Shown: in pieces, positions 12,421-32,842 of the stretch | How the letters are laid out: every line of letters begins with the position of its first letter | Numbering within the stretch: the stretch's first letter is position 1 | IMG/VR virus record: IMGVR_UViG_3300037560_000024 | Coordinates: 1-38,177 of that record | DNA from: a virus | Direction: 5' to 3' (one strand) | DNA length: 38,177 bases | Position numbers and translations under genes: made by a program | The notes under the pieces: generated by a model | What the model was told of the DNA's origin: nothing | Seen by the model: only the letters and a program-made list of their open reading frames with translations | Database searches by the model: none

Positions 12421-12773
12421 ATAAGCATACTCTCTATTTGTCCTGCTATATACCCAGTAAGATAGGCTAGTGCCTCATGATTGTCAGCACTCACGTCAAC
12501 TCCAACTTCTTCCAGTATATACCAAGCAGCATGGAGAGCCTCGTGGGCTAGCTCCTCTGAATCAGGTATCTCAGCAAAGGATACACAGAATGCTCGCATA
12601 CCCTCCTCATCTTCTATAAATGTAGTAACTCCTGCATGTGTTGGGGCTATCTCTAGTCCCGGCACCTTAAACTTCTTAGCCAGTATGTCTGGCCCTATGC
12701 CTATATACAGTACCTGACGGTATAGAGGTATAATTACTTTTTTAAACTTCTTATACTTTATAGATTCTGACAT
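12417..12773 (-). CDS. Putative zinc metallopeptidase-like protein with HEALH motif
   Basis: 118 residues from the ATG at 12773, preferred because AGAGGT sits four bases ahead; an upstream start at 12794 would add seven residues inside the previous gene. A helix carries HEALH (HExxH type) at about residues 76-80 and a second helix about 20 residues later has NHEALAYLTGY, giving a possible third glutamate ligand. This is the gluzincin-like arrangement of a small metallopeptidase core. A target cannot be named. The HExxH could also be fortuitous, but the paired helix with His/Glu argues for a real site. Confidence 0.55.
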   Translation of the reverse strand: MSESIKYKKFKKVIIPLYRQVLYIGIGPDILAKKFKVPGLEIAPTHAGVTTFIEDEEGMRAFCVSFAEIPDSEELAHEALHAAWYILEEVGVDVSADNHEALAYLTGYIAGQIESMLI

Positions 12774-13125
12774 CTTTACCTCTACGATTGGCATACTCTA
12801 TTGTGTAGGCAGTACCACGGGATTCTCCGTCCCATACTGCTATCACAGCATCTGAGTTGTCTACAATCTGACGATTGCGTACAAAGAAATGTTCCATACT
12901 GAAGGGTATTCCCTTGCTCAGCTTAAAGATAGGAACAAAAGAAATAAAATCATAGCCATGGTCATTGGCAAACGACTTGGCATAAGAGTCTACTCCCTCT
13001 GCACCTCCTGATATAATAGTAATAGCCGATGTGTACTGGGATAGGTCGTTTATGTAGTCACCAATAGCGGTAATAACATACTTCTCCTCTACTACACCAC
13101 GGCTACCTACTACTGCTATTCTCAC
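12751..13125 (-). CDS. SLOG-superfamily (YspA/cpYpsA, DUF2493-like) nucleotide-binding protein
   Basis: 124 residues of Rossmann-like pattern: strand plus GSR loop (RIAVVGSRG, residues 2-10), SGGAEGVDSYA (residues about 39-49) which is the Gly-rich ligand loop of the SLOG/DprA-like fold, then RNRQIVDNSDAVIAVWDG and GTAYTIEYA. These are the hallmark segments of the family. Members bind or process nucleotide or ADP-ribose-type ligands. In a phage such a protein might act in nucleotide metabolism or neutralise host nucleotide signals; neither is shown. It overlaps the genes on both sides. Confidence 0.75.
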   Translation of the reverse strand: MRIAVVGSRGVVEEKYVITAIGDYINDLSQYTSAITIISGGAEGVDSYAKSFANDHGYDFISFVPIFKLSKGIPFSMEHFFVRNRQIVDNSDAVIAVWDGESRGTAYTIEYANRRGKDVRIYKV

Positions 13126-16799: not shown

Positions 16800-17579
16800 T
16801 TAGCCATAATGTTTAAGCAAAGATTCTAGTCTAACAAAGCTTGGGTCATAGTCTCCATCTACTACATCTTCAAGCATGACTACCCCTCTCCAATGCTGTC
16901 TATTCTGCTGTGGTCCAAGGTAATCCTCATCATGCATATAGAATGCACCTGCTACTATACCATGTATAGGTGTGCCTATTGCATCATAAGATACACCATA
17001 TTGAAGTGTCTGTGTATGGCCCTGTACGAAGGTTGTTTTCAAGTTGTTAAGCTTGGTGTTAGCCTGCCCTGCTACTGGTCTAGGTGATGCACTATTAGGA
17101 TTTAAGAAGTAATGTGAGTATGCTACTCCATCTATACTGACCACGTTTAAGAAGTCATGTACTTCCCATCCAAACTCCTTGTACCTGAGATCATCCATGC
17201 TAATGATACCCTCTAGGTGAGTAGGATTGCTATCTATGGCACGCTGTATGCGTTGCTCATGGTTACCCAGTGTCATCACCATACGTGGATGGTACTGCTT
17301 CTTCCTGTCCTTACGTCTCTTCTCATTGTACTTAGCTAGAGGTGCTAGTAGTATGTCCATAGCTAGGTGTACCCATGCTATGTCATCCTTATATCTCTTG
17401 CCCTCGAACTGTCTAGAGCCAGCCTTGTCAAAGCTGTTAAGACTAGGCATGTCAGCAAAGTCACCTATCATTACAATAACATCAGGCTTCTTCTTTACTA
17501 TATAATTACCTAGTGCATGCAGGTGATCCAGTGGAACACCCGGTCTGACCTGACAATCCGGCACAAATAAATGTTTCAT
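16800..17579 (-). CDS. Calcineurin-like metallophosphoesterase
   Basis: 259 residues. The metal-binding motifs of the family are in order: PDCQ (D8 and Q10, where most members have DxH), GDFAD (D40 region), LGNHE near residue 105, a histidine in YSHYF, and GHTQ near residue 195. The fold is the Mn/Fe dimetal phosphoesterase fold; phage members act on phosphomonoesters, cyclic nucleotides or nucleic acids. The substrate cannot be told from sequence. The start overlaps the stop of the deoxyribosyltransferase-like gene by 4 nt, so the two may act in one nucleotide pathway. Confidence 0.88.
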   Translation of the reverse strand: MKHLFVPDCQVRPGVPLDHLHALGNYIVKKKPDVIVMIGDFADMPSLNSFDKAGSRQFEGKRYKDDIAWVHLAMDILLAPLAKYNEKRRKDRKKQYHPRMVMTLGNHEQRIQRAIDSNPTHLEGIISMDDLRYKEFGWEVHDFLNVVSIDGVAYSHYFLNPNSASPRPVAGQANTKLNNLKTTFVQGHTQTLQYGVSYDAIGTPIHGIVAGAFYMHDEDYLGPQQNRQHWRGVVMLEDVVDGDYDPSFVRLESLLKHYG

Positions 17580-17926
17580 CTATATCCTACCTCCTCCAAG
17601 TAAGCGCGAGTAGCTGCCTTGTCCAGTGTGCGTCTACCAATAGAACTAGGAATCTCTATCACTGGTATGTGTCTAGCTATGGCATGTTGAATCTCCAATG
17701 CCACTCCAGAACTTATGGAACCATCAGGCAATGCCTTAAATACCACACAATCAACGGTGTCCACCAATCCAAGGAAGTAACCAAACCCCTGTGCCTTATA
17801 GCCTACATCATGCTTGAGTGCATTTGGGTTGAGTACATCAAAGCCTAGCTGTGAGATAGTGTCAACATCTCTAGCCTCAGCTGGTGTATTGTATATGTTT
17901 ATGGCATGAGCATAGTATGCTATCAT
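17576..17926 (-). CDS. Nucleoside 2-deoxyribosyltransferase-like (SLOG-related) protein
   Basis: 116 residues. YYAHAINIYNTP at the start, a DCVVFKALPDGS turn in the middle, and GVALEIQHAIARHIPVIEI near residues 77-95 reproduce the core of the nucleoside deoxyribosyltransferase fold, where the Glu in the last motif is the usual nucleophile (Glu81 here, approximately). Enzymes of this fold break N-glycosidic bonds of nucleosides or nucleotides. In the phage it may salvage bases or act on a nucleotide signal. It overlaps neighbours on both sides by 4 nt. Confidence 0.6.
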   Translation of the reverse strand: MIAYYAHAINIYNTPAEARDVDTISQLGFDVLNPNALKHDVGYKAQGFGYFLGLVDTVDCVVFKALPDGSISSGVALEIQHAIARHIPVIEIPSSIGRRTLDKAATRAYLEEVGYR

Positions 17927-25320: not shown

Positions 25321-25541
25321 ATGCCTAGAAGCTCAAATACTCTTTCCCGAGGCAGAACAAAGTCTGCTCGGAGAGGATCGGGTATTACACCTACTGTATG
25401 AGTTGCACACACACCCTTTAATGGTATGAATACAAAGCTCCCCTGCTGAGGGGAATTATATTTTAGATTAAGCACCTTGGCTACAGCCTTAACGTCATCA
25501 CGTGGTGTAGTTGATTCAAATGTAATATAGGAGTAGCTCAT
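25317..25541 (-). CDS. Small alpha/beta family protein, member 3 (25.3 kb)
   Basis: 74 residues, AGGA before ATG, overlapping the primase gene by 4 nt. It begins YSYITFESTTPRDDVKAVAKV, then QGSFVFIPLKG, and ends ADFVLPRERVFELLGI. The order strand, helix, strand, and terminal strand-helix matches the other members of the small family. Function unknown. Confidence 0.65.
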   Translation of the reverse strand: MSYSYITFESTTPRDDVKAVAKVLNLKYNSPQQGSFVFIPLKGVCATHTVGVIPDPLRADFVLPRERVFELLGI

Positions 25542-25747
25542 ATTCCTGCTGCCCTCCTCATGTGTGTGATACTAATAACTATATCATCATCGTCAGGGAT
25601 ATCCTGCGAACCTATCTCTGCGTTAACTAGGTCAATCCAGATGTACCCCTGTCCATTGTCGTAACCAGTCTCATAGTTTAGAGATAGTGCATTCACAAAC
25701 ATAGGTATTAACCTCATACTTTGTTTAGTCTTAGCTGTGACAAACAT
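25538..25747 (-). CDS. Small alpha/beta family protein, member 4 (25.5 kb)
   Basis: 69 residues. QSMRLIPMFVNAL forms the first helix, GYIWIDLVNAEI the middle strand, and DIVISITHMRRAAGI the end. It overlaps its neighbours by 4 nt and 1 nt. The terminal element is more divergent than in the other copies, so membership is supported mainly by the YIWIDL strand and position. Confidence 0.55.
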   Translation of the reverse strand: MFVTAKTKQSMRLIPMFVNALSLNYETGYDNGQGYIWIDLVNAEIGSQDIPDDDDIVISITHMRRAAGI

Positions 25748-25992
25748 TATAGTAAGTCCTCTGATGCTAGTGCCTTAAGGAATTCCTTAACTGGCACCCT
25801 AATGGCTGATTGAGGGTATCCACTACAAGCATAGAAGTTAAGACCTGGTGCGTTGTCGGATGAATACATACCAAGTACCCCACCAGCCCTAGTAGACCAA
25901 CTTCCCCCCTTGCACCTGAATCTTGTACGTAAGGCAGTACACATTCTGTCTGCCCTAGAAGTTTCACACTCTATACGTACGTAGCTACTCAT
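25747..25992 (-). CDS. Small alpha/beta family protein, member 5 (25.8 kb)
   Basis: 81 residues. SSYVRIECETSRADRMCTAL is strand plus helix, GLNFYACSG the middle strand, and AIRVPVKEFLKALASEDLL a typical family end. Its start overlaps the stop of the zinc-ribbon gene by 8 nt. Four family members (25.3-26.0 and one past the gap) are almost in tandem here. Confidence 0.65.
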   Translation of the reverse strand: MSSYVRIECETSRADRMCTALRTRFRCKGGSWSTRAGGVLGMYSSDNAPGLNFYACSGYPQSAIRVPVKEFLKALASEDLL

Positions 25993-26214: not shown

Positions 26215-26475
26215 CTATACTATTATAGTATCTCTTCCAAATAAAGCTTGAGCAAACTGTTGTTCAGTCACAAGCATAAACCTACTGTCTCCCGCAGCTA
26301 CAAGTCCTGAGTGGTAACTAAAGGCTTTGCTATCCTTAAGATCTATCATCATAAGGTTATCCGAGGAATTGTTTCTGTATCCTTTATTGTGACGAACTCG
26401 TGACTCCTTGACACTAATGCTTATAGCTCTAGATGCATCACTAGTAGGGCACCCAATATATCTAATGGTAGCCAC
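26215..26475 (-). CDS. Small alpha/beta family protein, member 6 (26.3 kb)
   Basis: 86 residues from a GTG at 26475 with GTAGAG ahead, overlapping the cyclotransferase gene by 14 nt. Strand TIRYIGCPTSD, helix ASRAISISVKES, strand NLMMIDLKDS and terminal RFMLVTEQQFAQALFGRD follow the family pattern. It is the last gene of the amidoligase transcript. Confidence 0.6.
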   Translation of the reverse strand: MATIRYIGCPTSDASRAISISVKESRVRHNKGYRNNSSDNLMMIDLKDSKAFSYHSGLVAAGDSRFMLVTEQQFAQALFGRDTIIV

Positions 26476-26821
26476 AGTACTCTACCCAGTCACCACTGAA
26501 CACCTCAGCTGGATCTCCTCTATAATCTCTCATGAAGTAGATCCATGTAGAAGGTAGTGCAGGTAGATCAAACACCCTGTCATAGAAGTTAGGGTATCCT
26601 TCGAGATAGTCCAGCCTCTCAAAGGTAGTATCATCTACCTCATATGTTTCAACAGTGATGTTGTGTAGTTCACCTGCTTGTAGTAGGGCAGGGAATGCCC
26701 CAAGGCTTACCATAGTGAAAGGTAACTGTACTGTACTAGTACCTAGTAACGTAGCCGATGCCAGTAGTGGGTGGTTACCCATACCCTGACGTAAGCTACC
26801 GTATACTGCGACCTGTGTCAT
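26462..26821 (-). CDS. Gamma-glutamylcyclotransferase-like (GGCT/AIG2-fold) enzyme
   Basis: 119 residues, normal length for the single-domain family. The signature substrate loop VYGSLRQG is at residues 6-13 and the catalytic acid lies in LDYLEGYP (E74). Enzymes of this fold release pyroglutamate (5-oxoproline) from gamma-glutamyl amines. Within this cluster it may trim or recycle a gamma-glutamyl product of the ligases. It overlaps the upstream gene by 1 nt and the downstream one by 14 nt, in a single transcription unit. Confidence 0.9.
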   Translation of the reverse strand: MTQVAVYGSLRQGMGNHPLLASATLLGTSTVQLPFTMVSLGAFPALLQAGELHNITVETYEVDDTTFERLDYLEGYPNFYDRVFDLPALPSTWIYFMRDYRGDPAEVFSGDWVEYCGYH

Positions 26822-27324
26822 TACTTACGGGCCTCTGCTGCCATGGCTGCCAGAAGTTTAAGAGCCTCTTCTTGCTCAGCCTTCTTCTCAGCAGCTGGAT
26901 CATAGTCACCCATATCGGGAGGTGACACTTGAAATTGTTTGATCTTACCATCCTCCTCTACCTGACTAAGTGCCAGTGTCCAGCTACGGATATCATTACT
27001 ACTGTTGTTATTGTGTGCTGCCTCACTGCTGGTGAAACCGTGGTGATCACAGAACTCTTCAAGTGTAGGGTAGCCTGTCTTAGCTGGTGTCCATCCATCA
27101 TCTTTCTTGGACTTTGTTGTAACACCACTAGCTACCAGTAGACCGAAGTCTCTGCCTTCTTTGATTACATCTATCATCAGCAGGTCGTAGATATCTGCAC
27201 GCTTCTTATCACTCAGTGACTTCTGTCCACCATTAAAACTTGAGATAAGATTAGCTCCGCAGTTACTGCTAAGCCCTGCCACTCCTACTGATACCGTTGC
27301 GCCGTATGCTTGTACTCTAGCCAT
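26821..27324 (-). CDS. Hypothetical cluster protein, candidate partner or substrate of the amidoligase
   Basis: 167 residues from the ATG at 27324, which has GAGGAAAT ahead; an earlier ATG at 27384 lies within the ATP-grasp gene. The N-terminal 30 residues are Gly/Ala/Val/Ser-rich, and the middle part holds EEFCDHHGFTSSEAAHNNNS. The last 16 residues (EEALKLLAAMAAEARK) match the C-terminus of the amidoligase at 29593-30513 (EALQLLAAMRAEAS). No enzyme motif is seen. It lies between ATP-grasp and cyclotransferase genes, so a role as substrate, carrier or subunit is proposed. Confidence 0.6.
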   Translation of the reverse strand: MARVQAYGATVSVGVAGLSSNCGANLISSFNGGQKSLSDKKRADIYDLLMIDVIKEGRDFGLLVASGVTTKSKKDDGWTPAKTGYPTLEEFCDHHGFTSSEAAHNNNSSNDIRSWTLALSQVEEDGKIKQFQVSPPDMGDYDPAAEKKAEQEEALKLLAAMAAEARK

Positions 27325-28093
27325 GATTATTTCCTCGTATTGCTTCGATTTTTTGTGCATAATTTTCAAGGGTTGTGCCGACAAGACCCGGAGCTGTGTT
27401 TACTTCCAACACGTAGTAGTTGTTACTGTTCTCATTGTATATAATATCCACTGCACCAAAGTGTAGACCTAGTGACTGGCATGCAGCTATAGCTAGCTGG
27501 TCTCTGCGCTCGTCCTGTTGTACGCCTTCTCGTGCAAATATGAATCCGTTGTTATGGTTACGTACCTGCCAGTTAACCTGACTATCAGGTATATCATTAC
27601 GTCTAGCCTTACGCTGAGTATCTATCACCTCACCTGCAAACACATGAGTACGGTACTCATTCTGCTTCTTGATGTACTTAACGTACAAGGGAGCAGTAGG
27701 TACATGCCCATTAGGGTTAACGATCTCAATACCTCTACCCTCTGACCCTCTAGTTAGGTGGCGTACTACTACTGTACTACCAGCATCAGCCCATCGCTGA
27801 GCAACAGCACGCTCTACTGTAAAGTCTGGTATACTAACCTCTCCAGTCTGCATAGATAAAAATGCACGTACCTTATCTGACGCCCTTGATATAGCAGTAG
27901 GTGGGTTAAAGAATTGCGGTGCATCATAAGTGGTCTGCTCTACATCGCTGTTACCCCAGTTCACAATGATATCACCACGTCTAGGTACATAGCTAGAGCC
28001 TGTCAGCTTAAGTCTACGTACACCTAGTCGTTCAGCCAGTGCCTTAGCACTAGCACTACCTGCCTTGTATGGCAGTATAAATAATCTAGCCAT
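27317..28093 (-). CDS. RimK-like ATP-grasp ligase
   Basis: 258 residues from the ATG at 28093 with GGAGAG upstream; the longer frame to 28159 overlaps another gene. Features of the ATP-grasp fold: DIIVNWGNSD early, VVVRHLTRGSEGRGIEIV as the Gly-rich ATP loop, LYVKYIKKQNEYR, and FGAVDIIYN with LEVNTAPG near the end holding the Mg-binding Glu/Asn. RimK-type enzymes join an amino acid to a carboxyl group through an acyl phosphate. In this cluster it would extend a peptide or metabolite by amide bonds. The acceptor is unknown. Confidence 0.88.
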   Translation of the reverse strand: MARLFILPYKAGSASAKALAERLGVRRLKLTGSSYVPRRGDIIVNWGNSDVEQTTYDAPQFFNPPTAISRASDKVRAFLSMQTGEVSIPDFTVERAVAQRWADAGSTVVVRHLTRGSEGRGIEIVNPNGHVPTAPLYVKYIKKQNEYRTHVFAGEVIDTQRKARRNDIPDSQVNWQVRNHNNGFIFAREGVQQDERRDQLAIAACQSLGLHFGAVDIIYNENSNNYYVLEVNTAPGLVGTTLENYAQKIEAIRGNNHG

Positions 28094-28328
28094 GATTAAG
28101 CTTCTCTCTCCAATTAGTTTGCAGGTCTTGCCAATAGTTATGCCCTTGTGCTGTTTCACTCCAAGTGAATGCAGCGTCTATAAATCTACTAGAATCTGCA
28201 CGAGCTAGTAGCTCTTCCAGCGATAGTTTCCTATACTGATAAGTAAGGAATGCCTTAACAAACTCAGTAGTTAAGTTATTCTCTTCCAGAAACACAGCAA
28301 ATTTAACTGCATCAGTGTGTTGTGTCAT
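28086..28328 (-). CDS. Small hypothetical protein, paralogue of the protein at 22151-22573
   Basis: 80 residues, AGGAGGAT before ATG. Contains FAVFLEENNLTTEFVKAFL and a C-terminal W..L...WREKL. Both elements recur in the larger protein at 22151. The gene overlaps both the ATP-grasp and the amidotransferase genes. The helical acidic character suggests a protein-protein adaptor. No known function. Confidence 0.65.
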   Translation of the reverse strand: MTQHTDAVKFAVFLEENNLTTEFVKAFLTYQYRKLSLEELLARADSSRFIDAAFTWSETAQGHNYWQDLQTNWREKLNHG

Positions 28329-29589
28329 CTTTCTTATCCTCCTCTTCTATCCACTCTTCAAGGTATATGTCATAGCACCTGTCATGCATTAGCCCATAAG
28401 GGGAGAACTTACCATCAAGTGCCTCCTCCATTGACATAGGGTGGCTGCAATATGCACACCCATCCTTAATAAGTTTCTTTAAGTTACCAAGTGTAACTGC
28501 ATCATGATCTATCACTATCACCTCATCATCAAGCATATCATCAGCATCAAAAGGGATGTCATCATTGTACCCTGTTGACGGGTCACCACTAGCCAGTATC
28601 TCTTCAATACCAAAGCCAGATATAAACCCTGTAGCCCTGTTAACCATAGTTCCTGAGTACATCTTACCTACCTGTAGTTCAGGCACAGCAACACGTGAAA
28701 TCTCATAGGTCCTGCCAGTGTCTAAATCAGTACACCCCCAGTAACCATCGGTACTATAGTTAACAACGAAGTCAACCTCTTCTGTTTCTAGGGCAGTATC
28801 ATTTTTCTTACCAGTCCCATGAGTTTGGTATGTATTGCCACCACGATTGTTCCATACCGACTGCCCACTGTACTTTGGGGCTAGTTCTACAGTAGTAGCT
28901 GCCTCCAATAGCATTTCCTTAGTCATGATAGGCCACTTACCTAGCTCCCATGCTGAGGGTATCTCAAGGTGCTCACCTGCCGGTAACTTAAAGATCTCCT
29001 TGATCTCTATATCATTACGACCTAACACCCAGCGCAGCATGTCTGCCTCTGATGCCCAGTATATATTACTAGCAGTGATAGCTATATGTAATGGCTTGAA
29101 CTCATTACGCAAGAAGTTAATAGTGCTACGGTCTGCATCATGCCAGACCAGTGCAAAGGTACCTCTTAGTTCCTTAGCCGTGTCTACAACCCCATGCTCT
29201 GACATGTAGTTAGTGATTGCTTCGCTATCTACATCAGCATCATGGTCAAGGCTGTAGTGGTTTGTTAACGTACCGTTATGTACCAGTGTTATATGATCTG
29301 AACAGAATGGGTGTGCATTAGCGTTAGATATTATACCCCTGCTAGCAAACCTATTGTGTCCAATGAATGCAGTGGTGTGGTACTTGTACCCTGTTATCTC
29401 AGCCAGTGTACCTTGTGATATGAACTCACTTGCAGACACTGCTTGCTTATACACTAGCCGTTTGTCCCCATCAATAGCACATACACCGGTACTATGTGGC
29501 CCCCTTATCGTGTCAGCTATCAGTAACTCCTTGAATGCTGTCTTGTCTTTCAATGCTAACGTACCTACTACTCCTACTATTCCACACAT
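28312..29589 (-). CDS. Class II glutamine amidotransferase (Ntn-type) with extended C-terminus
   Basis: 425 residues, AGAGGAT before ATG. Cys2 follows the initiator Met (MCGIVGVVG), the N-terminal nucleophile of this class. GHNRFASRG and HNGTLTN supply the glutamine-binding loop and LRGTFALVWHD completes the fold up to about residue 210. It hydrolyses glutamine to give ammonia. The 200-residue extension carries CAYCSHPMSMEEA and HDRCYD, a potential zinc site, and no asparagine-synthase domain. Ammonia may pass to the amidoligase encoded 3 nt upstream. A GFAT or PurF function is not supported because the synthase domains are absent. Confidence 0.88.
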   Translation of the reverse strand: MCGIVGVVGTLALKDKTAFKELLIADTIRGPHSTGVCAIDGDKRLVYKQAVSASEFISQGTLAEITGYKYHTTAFIGHNRFASRGIISNANAHPFCSDHITLVHNGTLTNHYSLDHDADVDSEAITNYMSEHGVVDTAKELRGTFALVWHDADRSTINFLRNEFKPLHIAITASNIYWASEADMLRWVLGRNDIEIKEIFKLPAGEHLEIPSAWELGKWPIMTKEMLLEAATTVELAPKYSGQSVWNNRGGNTYQTHGTGKKNDTALETEEVDFVVNYSTDGYWGCTDLDTGRTYEISRVAVPELQVGKMYSGTMVNRATGFISGFGIEEILASGDPSTGYNDDIPFDADDMLDDEVIVIDHDAVTLGNLKKLIKDGCAYCSHPMSMEEALDGKFSPYGLMHDRCYDIYLEEWIEEEDKKDDTTH

Positions 29590-29592
29590 ATG

Positions 29593-30513
29593 CTATCCTC
29601 TGACTGGTGGTGGTGGTGTATCTGATGCCTCTGCCCTCATGGCAGCTAACAATTGCAGTGCTTCTATCTGCTCCTCTGTTGCACCATCGAACGCAGACAT
29701 ACCTTCCACACGTTCAGGCTTGTACTGTTCACGAGGTAGTGAGTGTACTAGGTTCATGACGTTATTATGAAACTTATCATGGTAGTCACCTGATACACAC
29801 ATAGGCCCTACTAAATCATTACCATAGACGTGTCTTATAACACGCTCAGCTGGTGAACTCTGTGCAAATGCTAGCACCTCTTCAGGTGAGCTAAAGGTTA
29901 ACGATCCACTACGTAGCCGACTGATCACATCAATCCATAGTCTGATACGTGCTATGTCAGCTGTACCCTCATGCATACGGAACTCAACTGTACCTAGGTC
30001 ACCTATCCTTGATAGGTTAATGCCTGTGTACTTAGGCCACCGCCGTAGTACTGCAAAATCTTTTTGCTTATAAAAATCACGTATCGTACGGAGTAAGTGT
30101 GCTGCATTGGTTAAGCCGGGGCAGTAGATGTTATCATATCTGTCCTTACCACACATACTGTATAAGGCTGACTCTGTTACTGTATACACAGCAAGCAGTG
30201 TAGCTACCTGTTGCTCGGTTAAGTTACGAGCGTTGATGTGTACATGCACTGATGTACGTTCAGATATGTTGAAGACCTGTGACGTGAGAGCAGCTCGGAG
30301 GTCTATCAATGCTTGCTCTATATTCTTTGGCCCCTTAGGCCCGTTGAATACTATCTCAATGCCATCATTACGAAGGGATGGATCACCCACATAAGACAGG
30401 TGTCGTGACTCTGGCATACGAGACACATCTGCACCCTCCAGTTCCACCTCTACCCCTATACATAAGGGGTTCTTAAGACTAGCTATTCCAAAATATTCTG
30501 CGACTGTTCCCAT
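29593..30513 (-). CDS. Amidoligase (COOH-NH2 ligase, GS-like fold)
   Basis: 306 residues, GAGG before ATG, overlapping the preceding gene by 1 nt. The metal- and ATP-binding motifs of the amidoligase family are present: GVEVELEG (E22/E24/E26), DPSLRNDGIEIVF (D44, E53), SVHVHIN (H90, H92), then NLSRIG and TVEFRMHEG (R179). The family forms amide bonds using ATP and a glutamine-synthetase-like fold. The C-terminal 20 residues (EALQLLAAMRAEAS) are not part of the core and recur in the protein at 26821. It lies next to the amidotransferase. Confidence 0.9.
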   Translation of the reverse strand: MGTVAEYFGIASLKNPLCIGVEVELEGADVSRMPESRHLSYVGDPSLRNDGIEIVFNGPKGPKNIEQALIDLRAALTSQVFNISERTSVHVHINARNLTEQQVATLLAVYTVTESALYSMCGKDRYDNIYCPGLTNAAHLLRTIRDFYKQKDFAVLRRWPKYTGINLSRIGDLGTVEFRMHEGTADIARIRLWIDVISRLRSGSLTFSSPEEVLAFAQSSPAERVIRHVYGNDLVGPMCVSGDYHDKFHNNVMNLVHSLPREQYKPERVEGMSAFDGATEEQIEALQLLAAMRAEASDTPPPPVRG

Positions 30514-31064
30514 TATAATACCTCTTCATCAAAGCTACGTTTAACCTGTGGATCAGGGATTGATATGCGGCTGCTTATCACCTCACCTACTATAACATCA
30601 CGCATGTATACCACATAGTTCTGGTATGTAGGTCGCTTGACTATAGCAAAGTTCTTGGATATAGCACCACCCTCTTGCTTGGCCTGATCAATAGACACAT
30701 ACTCAGGTGCAAGTAAGGGTGCAATCACATCATCACCTCTTATTGCTCTGCCCTGTAGCTGTGTGATATGCAGTAAGTTAGCCATGATACCACGGTGCCA
30801 CTGCCGCTGAGGCATACGCTCAACCCAAGCTACCCCTTTACCTAGGTTCACCATCATACTATCAGGATGATCAAAGGTTAGCTTACTATCAGCTAGTGCT
30901 ACCTCTTCTGCAACACCCTCATACTCAACGATAACACGGTTGGTACCTACTGGTTCAAGTACACGTGCAGGTACTACCTTACTACCATCCTTACTAACAA
31001 TCCCAATGAACCCACGTCCATAGGTACGGGATATGTCCTCTCTTGACATACTACTTGGTCTCAT
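30513..31064 (-). CDS. Hypothetical protein conserved in position within the amidoligase cluster
   Basis: 183 residues, ideal GGAGG site before ATG. The N-terminal half is beta-rich (RGFIGIVSKDGSKVVPARV; TNRVIVEYEGVAEEVAL), perhaps a small barrel; the middle has GKGVAWVERMPQRQWHRGI. The C-terminal part looks mixed. No catalytic motif is recognised. Coupling to the amidoligase by a 1-nt overlap suggests a shared pathway or complex. Confidence 0.55.
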   Translation of the reverse strand: MRPSSMSREDISRTYGRGFIGIVSKDGSKVVPARVLEPVGTNRVIVEYEGVAEEVALADSKLTFDHPDSMMVNLGKGVAWVERMPQRQWHRGIMANLLHITQLQGRAIRGDDVIAPLLAPEYVSIDQAKQEGGAISKNFAIVKRPTYQNYVVYMRDVIVGEVISSRISIPDPQVKRSFDEEVL

Positions 31065-31327
31065 ATAGCCTCCTCTATTCCTAATGCTTTAACGAACTGA
31101 TCACAGGGTACAAGTACACTTGCAGGCTCAATATGTCTACCACTCCCATGTGATACACTTACATTACCATCTATCCATAAAAATATGTACCTTCCTGTGG
31201 GCCTGTTATTTTTTATGTGCCCTAACCACGCACTTCTGTTAGCTACCTTTAGATTATCTAACAGTGCCTTCACTACATTGAGTGGGTCAGCCGGAGGCTT
31301 AACCTCAGTGTACACTACCTTAACCAT
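31061..31327 (-). CDS. Small alpha/beta family protein, member 7 (31.2 kb)
   Basis: 88 residues. VKVVYTEVKP, helix DPLNVVKALLDNL, strand GRYIFLWIDGNVSV, and the end ASVLVPCDQFVKALGIEEAI follow the family order closely. It sits inside the amidoligase operon, next to member 8. Function unknown. Confidence 0.65.
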   Translation of the reverse strand: MVKVVYTEVKPPADPLNVVKALLDNLKVANRSAWLGHIKNNRPTGRYIFLWIDGNVSVSHGSGRHIEPASVLVPCDQFVKALGIEEAI

Positions 31328-31328
31328 A

Positions 31329-31559
31329 CTATCCTCCTGTTAGTGCCTGTTTAAATTGCTCCCATGTAACCTCTGTGCCTGTCTCACCTACTTGACTATG
31401 AGGCATTGCGAAGCCTGCGGTTCTATTATTAAAATTTACATATACATAAGGTGCATCATTATTTTCAGGATCAATAATACCACCGATAGGTTCTTTAATC
31501 CCTTTAATTAACTCTCTCGCCTCGGGTATAGAGGGGTAAGGTGCCATTATATACATCAC
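31329..31559 (-). CDS. Small alpha/beta family protein, member 8 (31.4 kb)
   Basis: 76 residues from a GTG at 31559 that overlaps the amidoligase stop, or 75 from the next ATG. Helix SIPEARELIKGIKE, strand PYVYVNFNNRTAGFAM, end TEVTWEQFKQALTGG. The family is not otherwise known to me. It follows the second amidoligase directly. Confidence 0.65.
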   Translation of the reverse strand: MMYIMAPYPSIPEARELIKGIKEPIGGIIDPENNDAPYVYVNFNNRTAGFAMPHSQVGETGTEVTWEQFKQALTGG

Positions 31560-32329
31560 AACGTAACTACCTTGTACTTAGTTATCAACTGTTGTGCTAA
31601 TGTCTTGTTGTTTGTGTTGATAGCCTGAACAATAAGCCTAGCATCAGCATCACTCACTGCATTGTTGAATGTTGTAGCTGCTGTGATGGTGTTGTTATAC
31701 ACCCACTCCATTAAGGTACTAGAGCTAAGCCAGAAGTTACTGAGTGAACGGTACTCCACACCATACACCTTGTGTCTGAATGCACCAGCATTACCATACA
31801 ACTCACGTCTACGTGCATCACCATCCATAAGGATAGAAGGTAAGCCTAGATGTAGATCCATAGCTCGTATGATCTTGCTGTTTGTTTCTTCATTGGGCTT
31901 GTTATACCCAACATGTATGTGTCCACCCGCAGTACGTAGTACTTGGTATGGGTCAGGGCTGGCGTTACGCTTCATTGTGTATGCATTGTAGTCAGGGTCA
32001 CAGCCAAACTGCAACGCTTGCTCACCCCACCCTACTAGCTGTGCCTGTGTGAATTCATGTGAACTCTCAACCACAGTGGATAGAGCATGTGGCTTAAGCA
32101 CCACGTCTAACTCATTACGTACAGTGTGATTGTTAGTGAGCCACTCTTGTACACTATGTGCTGGGTCAATGTTATACTCAGCTAGCACGTTGTCCTCTTG
32201 TAATGCACCTAGCTTACAAGCACGAGGTGACTGCTTACTACCACCTATCTTACCAATAGCAGCAGACATGTTGCCAGCTGCATCCTTAACAAACAGTTCA
32301 GGGTCTGCACCCACTAATATTTCAGACAT
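31556..32329 (-). CDS. Second amidoligase-type enzyme (phage COOH-NH2 ligase type 2)
   Basis: 257 residues from the ATG at 32329 with AGAGGT upstream. GADPELF at residues about 7-13, GGHIHVGY in the middle and YGVEYRSLSNFW toward the end are the characteristic motifs of phage COOH-NH2 ligases, which are distant relatives of glutamine synthetase. It is shorter than, and differs clearly from, the amidoligase at 29593, so the cluster has two ligases of this fold plus an ATP-grasp. The product would be an amide bond on an unknown acceptor. Confidence 0.85.
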   Translation of the reverse strand: MSEILVGADPELFVKDAAGNMSAAIGKIGGSKQSPRACKLGALQEDNVLAEYNIDPAHSVQEWLTNNHTVRNELDVVLKPHALSTVVESSHEFTQAQLVGWGEQALQFGCDPDYNAYTMKRNASPDPYQVLRTAGGHIHVGYNKPNEETNSKIIRAMDLHLGLPSILMDGDARRRELYGNAGAFRHKVYGVEYRSLSNFWLSSSTLMEWVYNNTITAATTFNNAVSDADARLIVQAINTNNKTLAQQLITKYKVVTL

Positions 32330-32579
32330 CACCTACTACCTCTTGTAATTGCTTTAATGTTAGGGTTGTAATTTCTGGGTTCATTTCCTCAAGTGTTCGA
32401 GGGTATGCACCAAGACTCATTATCTCACCATGATTAACACGTACATAACTTATAGCTGCTACTGGCTGTGCTATAGGTCGCTTGTTCCACCAATGTATGC
32501 CTACCCCTACAAGTAACCGTTGTGCAATGGCAGACTCAGCCTTAGTGAGGTTAACTATAGCTACTGTTAGTCCAGTCAT
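32322..32579 (-). CDS. Small alpha/beta family protein, member 9 (32.4 kb)
   Basis: 85 residues, overlapping the second amidoligase start by 8 nt. LTVAIVNLTKAESAIAQRL is strand plus helix, VAAISYVRVN the middle strand, and ITTLTLKQLQEVVGDV the terminal strand-helix. Function unknown. Confidence 0.65.
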   Translation of the reverse strand: MTGLTVAIVNLTKAESAIAQRLLVGVGIHWWNKRPIAQPVAAISYVRVNHGEIMSLGAYPRTLEEMNPEITTLTLKQLQEVVGDV

Positions 32580-32842
32580 ACAGTTAGCACCTCCATCACA
32601 GCCTTAAATGGTACGGGTATATATTGCCAAGGCCCACCAGTCCTACCATACTGTGATCCACCACGAGAAAGATGTTTGTACCCACCCTCATCTACTGGTA
32701 TAAACAGATAGTCTGAAAATCTATTGGTTATTATATCGTTGATAGCTGACGTACCATACCCCATGCCTTGTAGTATGGATTGTAATTCGTATAAGGACTG
32801 GTCGTTTACATCAGACACATCTATCTCAAGTTTAACCATCAC
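32576..32842 (-). CDS. Small alpha/beta family protein, member 10 (32.7 kb)
   Basis: 88 residues from GTG at 32842, or 87 from the adjacent ATG at 32839. VKLEIDVSDV, helix LYELQSILQGMG, strand DYLFIPVDEGG, a Gly-rich loop and end QYIPVPFKAVMEVLTV. The start overlaps the membrane-protein gene by 11 nt. Confidence 0.65.
   Translation of the reverse strand: MMVKLEIDVSDVNDQSLYELQSILQGMGYGTSAINDIITNRFSDYLFIPVDEGGYKHLSRGGSQYGRTGGPWQYIPVPFKAVMEVLTV

Follow-up and report, generated by a model that had tools for sequence, protein, structure and literature searches.

The virus record IMGVR_UViG_3300037560_000024, analysed over its full length of 38,177 bases (the window), carries at 26462-32332 on its minus strand a cassette that encodes two ligases of the glutamine synthetase (GS) fold, an ATP-grasp ligase, a class II glutamine amidotransferase (glutaminase) and a gamma-glutamylcyclotransferase (GGCT). 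At a probability of roughly one half, we read this set as an early-expressed phage cassette for gamma-glutamyl or amide ligation, whose enzymes would synthesise a small gamma-glutamyl-type amide or peptide, or attach one, to act on the infected host. The set itself is not new, having been annotated already in LUZ24-, PA11-, RIO-1- and phiEco32-like phages, with a published hypothesis of peptidoglycan modification and superinfection exclusion. New in this analysis are the presence of GGCT or a second type of gamma-glutamyl-cutting enzyme across the set and a C-terminal tail shared privately by two proteins of the same phage.

Under the proposed scheme, the glutaminase would hydrolyse glutamine to give ammonia and/or glutamate, and the two GS-fold ligases would phosphorylate a glutamate-type (gamma) carboxylate and couple it to an amine. 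A further amide bond would come from the ATP-grasp ligase, and GGCT would remove the gamma-glutamyl group as 5-oxoproline; in most related phages, a Peptidase_C26-type hydrolase accompanies GGCT or takes its place. The tails of one ligase and of a protein of about 167 residues would serve as a docking peptide for each other or for a common partner. This scheme builds on enzyme identity, linkage, active-site conservation, the fold of one ligase, the pattern of cutting enzymes and the shared tail; from these we infer in which order the steps run, that the product has gamma-glutamyl chemistry, what it targets and what the tail is for.

Enzymes, linkage and location of the cassette

The first-pass annotation had placed all five enzymes in this minus-strand unit, and both profiles and motifs agree with it. 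It had also called the two GS-fold ligases different in type, which is borne out by matches above cut-off to PF14395 COOH-NH2_lig (E = 3.7e-13, 49.7 bits against a cut-off of 25; phrog_3815 at 8e-87) and to PF12224 Amidoligase_2 (2.6e-11, 44.3 bits against 22), the latter protein being referred to below as the amidoligase. In the PF14395 ligase, residues D10, E12, D47, E52, R133, H138, E193 and R195 are invariant among 11 aligned phages. The structure prediction called for by the annotation gave, for this ligase, a confident AlphaFold2 model (predicted local distance difference test score, pLDDT, 96.2) with the fold of GS and glutamate-cysteine ligase; its matches in the PDB are glutamine synthetases, YbdK, plant glutamate-cysteine ligase and gamma-glutamylmethylamide synthetase (E of about 1e-5 to 3e-4), and such solved relatives mostly form gamma-glutamyl amides. 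Searches by sequence found no solved relative of either GS-fold ligase. The GxExE, HxH and E(F)R motifs of the amidoligase are present and invariant across the aligned phages.

The glutaminase matches GATase_6 at 7.9e-18 and begins with MCG, which puts its cysteine at position 2; C2, R80, N105, G106 and D121 are invariant, the HNR and HNG motifs accompany the N-terminal cysteine, and no fused synthase domain was recognised in the protein. Three cysteines in its C-terminal part (CxxC...C; C378, C381 and C405) are invariant in nine of nine aligned phages, which suggests a zinc ribbon or metal-binding knob. The ATP-grasp protein matches the RimK-like profile (8.2e-6, 26 bits against 21; phrog_2599 at 2.4e-85), lies nearest in sequence to RimK-type glutamate ligases and retains the ExN metal site (E252 and N254, both invariant). 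The GGCT matches GGACT at 6.2e-19, with the YGSL motif and the catalytic Glu (LDxxEG) characteristic of PF06094. All five profile scores lie far outside the range of chance, and alignments with other phages show the active-site motifs to be invariant or almost invariant; the window thus has the motif and profile hallmarks of PF14395, PF12224, a class II glutaminase, an ATP-grasp ligase and a GGCT.

Two scans of IMG/VR yielded 160 loci, which were searched with iterated profiles, and the count was limited to non-redundant loci flanked by 3 kb or more on either side. Among these loci, found via both ligases, the two ligases, glutaminase and ATP-grasp enzyme occur together in 86 of 86, so the set is not single and unlinked in related phages, the outcome that the annotation had named as speaking against a pathway. 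Relatives of the amidoligase occur in other phages as well, for example those of Arthrobacter. A search of 84,980 bacterial and archaeal genomes returned 14 cassette loci, all on metagenome-assembled contigs; in at least 10 of the 14, most of the phage-type layout is present. These contigs (L174-L187, from GTDB) sit in metagenome-assembled genomes that include Patescibacteria and Dojkabacteria, and are probably misbinned viruses. The cassette is practically confined to viruses.

The plus strand of the window bears podophage-type genes (a tail protein, a tail appendage and a 1514-residue internal virion protein), and the minus strand encodes DNA polymerase, helicase, primase, exonuclease and ribonucleotide reductase. 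The cassette lies within this early replication unit, adjoining primase, helicase and polymerase, with the virion genes on the other strand. In the RIO-1-like phage HP1, the cassette is expressed immediately after infection (PMC7082346).

Proposed gamma-glutamyl cleavage and described relatives

Many related phages carry an annotated 'glutamine amidotransferase' that belongs to PF07722 Peptidase_C26 (C26), with a nucleophile motif of the GICRGGQ type (GxCxGxQ in 118 of 125 open reading frames, ORFs). Gamma-glutamyl hydrolases such as PuuD belong to this family. In pathways that put gamma-glutamyl groups on and take them off (PuuA/PuuD, butirosin BtrJ/BtrG, the glutathione cycle), a ligase does the adding and a C26 or GGCT enzyme the removing. 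The phage cassette has a similar parts list, but differs in its three ligases and class II glutaminase, and the similarity is distant. PF07722 gave no match in the window record, which may be a fragment.

Whole-record searches found GGCT, C26 or both in 58 of 61 records. On a tree of four core proteins with 94 representatives, 92 tips have GGCT and/or C26, and the state changes at least 18 times; GGCT was scored as present for L110, which is the IMG/VR copy of Proteus phage Privateer or is closely related to it, on the ground that Privateer encodes a GGCT at another place in its genome. Strict mutual exclusion of GGCT and C26 was rejected, since the two occur together in many phages and the independent-pairs test was not significant. 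Only the pattern of at least one cutter survives, and it does so modestly. There is moderate support for the view that gamma-glutamyl bond cutting would belong to the cassette system. Seven phage contigs of about 37-104 kb (L023, L037, L040, L059, L060, L063 and L064) have at least two C26-type hits, and some have two GGCT genes, around the cassette.

Relatives of the COOH-NH2 ligase occur in 317 of 50,697 phage records (tblastn), all below 60% identity to the window, and a nucleotide search with an 18-kb stretch of the window found no DNA-level match in the phage collection; the window phage is therefore a divergent new member of a described set. The RIO-1-like version was named a 'peptidoglycan modification cassette' (PMC5498523; also PMC11945000) and was reported also in phiEco32, 7-11, PA11, tf, MR299-2, LUZ24, PaP3 and CW02 (PMC5498523). 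The window has the published layout, with its two amidoligases, ATP-grasp, glutaminase and GGCT gathered in the early/replication region. Closest in arrangement are the LUZ24-like phages (UFV-P2, NV1, tf), which have the COOH-NH2 ligase, a protein of about 185 residues, amidoligase, glutaminase, a small protein, ATP-grasp and GGCT in identical order, with primase/helicase after them. The UFV-P2 table lists COOH-NH2 ligase, a 186-residue protein, amidoligase, HNH endonuclease, glutaminase, 72- and 34-residue ORFs, ATP-grasp, GGCT, a 98-residue protein and primase/helicase (PMC3890496). The window differs in its added small ORFs and in the tail-sharing protein of about 167 residues. RIO-1, CW02, PA11 and CVT22 (Zobellviridae) have the same core enzymes, but their glutaminase precedes the COOH-NH2 ligase, and CVT22, CW02 and PA11 carry a C26-type enzyme that the window lacks. 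The core enzymes are also present in phiEco32-like phages (per PMC5498523), in Privateer-like large podophages and in crAss-like cr108_1; however, Privateer has its GGCT away from the cassette and no C26, and cr108_1 has C26 but lacks the 183-residue cassette protein described below.

Shared tail and accessory genes

The amidoligase and the protein of about 167 residues encoded between ATP-grasp and GGCT end alike in the window (EEQIEALQLLAAMRAEA and AEQEEALKLLAAMAAEA, respectively). The comparison was unplanned, having been prompted by these two tails viewed side by side, and the ensuing scan took in all loci. The C-terminal 40 residues of every cassette protein were compared with those of the other same-strand ORFs of its locus (18,712 pairs), and an extension to further loci used the last 45 residues (8,598 additional pairs). 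At least 9 of 12 identities were found for this protein pair in the window, L012 (TSDIESILAELDNFI and TADIESILAELDNFI), L013 (DANVEEILAALDAAVRAASA in both proteins) and L094 (TPVEAMADYIISQLGE and TSVEVLADYIIAQLGE), together with repeat fetches of the contigs; the only other such match was one lysine-rich pair in L063. The tails are helix-like, near-identical inside each phage and different between phages. A search of all four records with the tails of the window, L012 and L013 located each tail at exactly two sites, both in its own record. Outside the tail, the window's second protein has only 23-27% identity to its counterparts in the other phages.

At the DNA level, the two copies of the tail are 98% identical in L013, 93% in L012, 77% in L094 and 61% in the window, and the high values in L013 and L012 suggest recent conversion. 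The ratio of nonsynonymous to synonymous substitution rates (dN/dS) is about 0.1 in L012 and L094, a rough value from short stretches, and in the window the synonymous sites have reached saturation. Given these ratios and a peptide match that persists as the DNA diverges, the tail match appears to be kept at the protein level. The likeliest role would be that of a helix through which the two proteins dock on each other or on a common partner, and a shared degron or localisation tag may be considered as well. Tentatively, at a little short of even odds, we propose that the amidoligase and second protein of this clade share an addressing tail that is rewritten in each phage and kept matched by gene conversion and purifying selection, a docking code that would assemble the phage peptide-synthesis complex. 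The literature searched holds no description of such a tail.

Table 1. Features of the cassette region in the window
Feature	Position	Strand	Basis or remark
COOH-NH2 ligase, GS fold (PF14395, phiEco32-like type 2)	31556..32332, ATG at 32329	-	profile, motifs, AlphaFold2
183-residue cassette protein (phrog_11055/4877), directly upstream of amidoligase	30513..31064	-	PHROG match, model
Amidoligase, GS fold (PF12224), C-terminal tail EEQIEALQLLAAMRAEA	29593..30513	-	profile, motifs
Class II (Ntn) glutamine amidotransferase, Cys2	28312..29589	-	GATase_6 profile, motifs
80-residue phage protein, FxWxxTxxGHxYW motif	28086..28328	-	in unit, not a conserved cassette member
RimK-like ATP-grasp ligase, probable true ATG at 28093	27317..28159	-	profile, PHROG, motifs
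Protein of about 167 residues, C-G-A and NxNxxN motifs conserved, C-terminal tail AEQEEALKLLAAMAAEA	26821..27324	-	sequence comparison
Gamma-glutamylcyclotransferase (GGACT/AIG2-like), YGSL and LDxxEG motifs	26462..26821	-	profile, motifs
Shared tail copy 1, C-terminus of the protein of about 167 residues	26824..26886	-	tail search
Shared tail copy 2, near amidoligase C-terminus	29626..29676	-	tail search

The 183-residue protein is found in 61 of the 86 non-redundant loci. Its model (pLDDT 94.7) consists of SH3/Tudor-like beta barrels; a fold search of the PDB with this model gave no match below E 0.001, no enzyme match and barrel-like resemblances only, and a single-protein search of viral contigs returned near copies only. 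The second tailed protein matches no PHROG family, and the phage records contain no relative. The 80-residue protein was considered as a tag substrate and rejected, its motif lying inside the cassette in 2 of 94 representatives and being scattered elsewhere. Short phage proteins with FxWxxTxxGxxYW (phrog_16354 and others; for example that of the window, L013:6612-7281 and L012:4236-4752) occupy varied positions and are sometimes adjacent.

Two further small ORFs of the unit encode 76 and 88 residues. Adjacent ORFs of about 70-90 residues (25538-25992, 26215-26475, 31061-31559, 32322-32842) resemble diverged paralogues, and those at 31329-31559 and 26215-26475 have 8 of 12 residues in common near the C-terminus; no convincing relatives of these small ORFs were found among the loci. 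Elsewhere, small ORFs at 12751-13125 and 17576-17926 weakly match a GTP-binding/DprA-like family (phrog_289) and a nucleoside 2-deoxyribosyltransferase (phrog_355), respectively.

Readings of the cassette product

Several points weigh against a gamma-glutamyl ligation cassette acting on the host. Because the loci were found via both ligases, linkage is conditional on the ligases, and the converse is not implied. Independent evolution simulated on the core-protein tree leaves so few tips without a cutter in about 2-4% of runs, which makes the phylogeny-adjusted excess modest (simulated p about 0.02-0.04), and the sister-pair test of GGCT against C26 was not significant. Other activities, too, are found among proteins with GGCT-like and C26-like folds. 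None of the cassette enzymes has a characterised close relative. The five enzymes are present, but the complete pathway of which the first-pass annotation had spoken is at present a putative one, and the literature searched, in keeping with the annotation, contains no demonstrated product.

The strongest alternative is that the cassette builds and cuts unusual amide links in peptidoglycan stem peptides, so that the cell surface changes and superinfecting phages are shut out. GGCT can act only where the gamma-glutamyl residue has its alpha-amino group free, a feature missing from the D-Glu of a normal stem peptide; a terminal gamma-L-glutamyl group is therefore favoured over a stem-internal D-Glu. 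Early expression agrees with the peptidoglycan proposal, as do the named hosts in two lists of 60 records, which are Gram-negative-type bacteria. It has been published for RIO-1-like and LUZ24-like phages (PMC5498523; PMC11945000) and adopted for phiEco32 (PMC10580990; PMC11318856), and PMC10580990 credits the superinfection hypothesis to Iyer et al. (2009). Kinship with the neighbourhoods of that study, asserted by the annotation, holds within the literature searched. The same literature contains no published test of the peptidoglycan proposal, which we regard as possible yet unlikely, and the cassette product may still end in the envelope.

Less probable still is protein tagging, whereby the ligases would put glutamyl or peptide tags on host or phage proteins and the RimK-like enzyme would finish them. 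The affinity of the ATP-grasp protein to RimK-type ligases fits this, the SH3/Tudor-like protein could serve as a binding adaptor, and the shared tails suggest protein-protein docking; however, GGCT-type enzymes act mostly on small molecules. On sequence data, peptidoglycan, a small metabolite and protein tagging are inseparable.

An auxiliary role in nitrogen or amino-acid metabolism, as put forward for phage ZRK32 (PMC10945688), would account for the glutamine/glutamate enzymes, but it is improbable for a strictly linked, practically virus-only set whose ligases are unlike recent host copies. Host-acquired metabolic genes were likewise rejected, the genome-wide scan having given practically only phage-like contigs. 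ZRK32 itself (L003; OP650935.1, 'Poriferisphaera phage ZRK32', 21.9 kb) was reported as a chronic phage infecting a planctomycete; on the core-protein tree it groups inside the LUZ24-like phages beside Pseudomonas putida phage tf (L069), with LUZ24-like cassette order, which suggests that its reported host deserves checking.

Amino-acid-modified bases exist in some phages, yet DNA base hypermodification is very improbable here, and its hydroxymethyl-pyrimidine form is disfavoured: the expected thymidylate-synthase-like hydroxymethylase gene occurs in 2 of 46 cassette-bearing records and is absent from the window. Modification of the capsid or another virion protein, chemically conceivable in that these folds could ligate amides on proteins, has an equally slight chance; action on the host is favoured because of the early position, on the strand opposite the virion genes, and immediate expression in HP1 (PMC7082346). 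The capsid target entertained by the annotation loses ground along with its claim of completeness, while its enzyme assignments stand.

The multi-enzyme set is intact in hundreds of sequenced phages, including those of Pseudomonas and E. coli, although its product has gone unnamed for more than 15 years. The presence of GGCT or C26 gives biochemistry a specific starting point, the gamma-glutamyl bond to be cut, and the shared tail a direct handle on interaction; either could turn the vague label of 'cell-wall modification' into a testable pathway.

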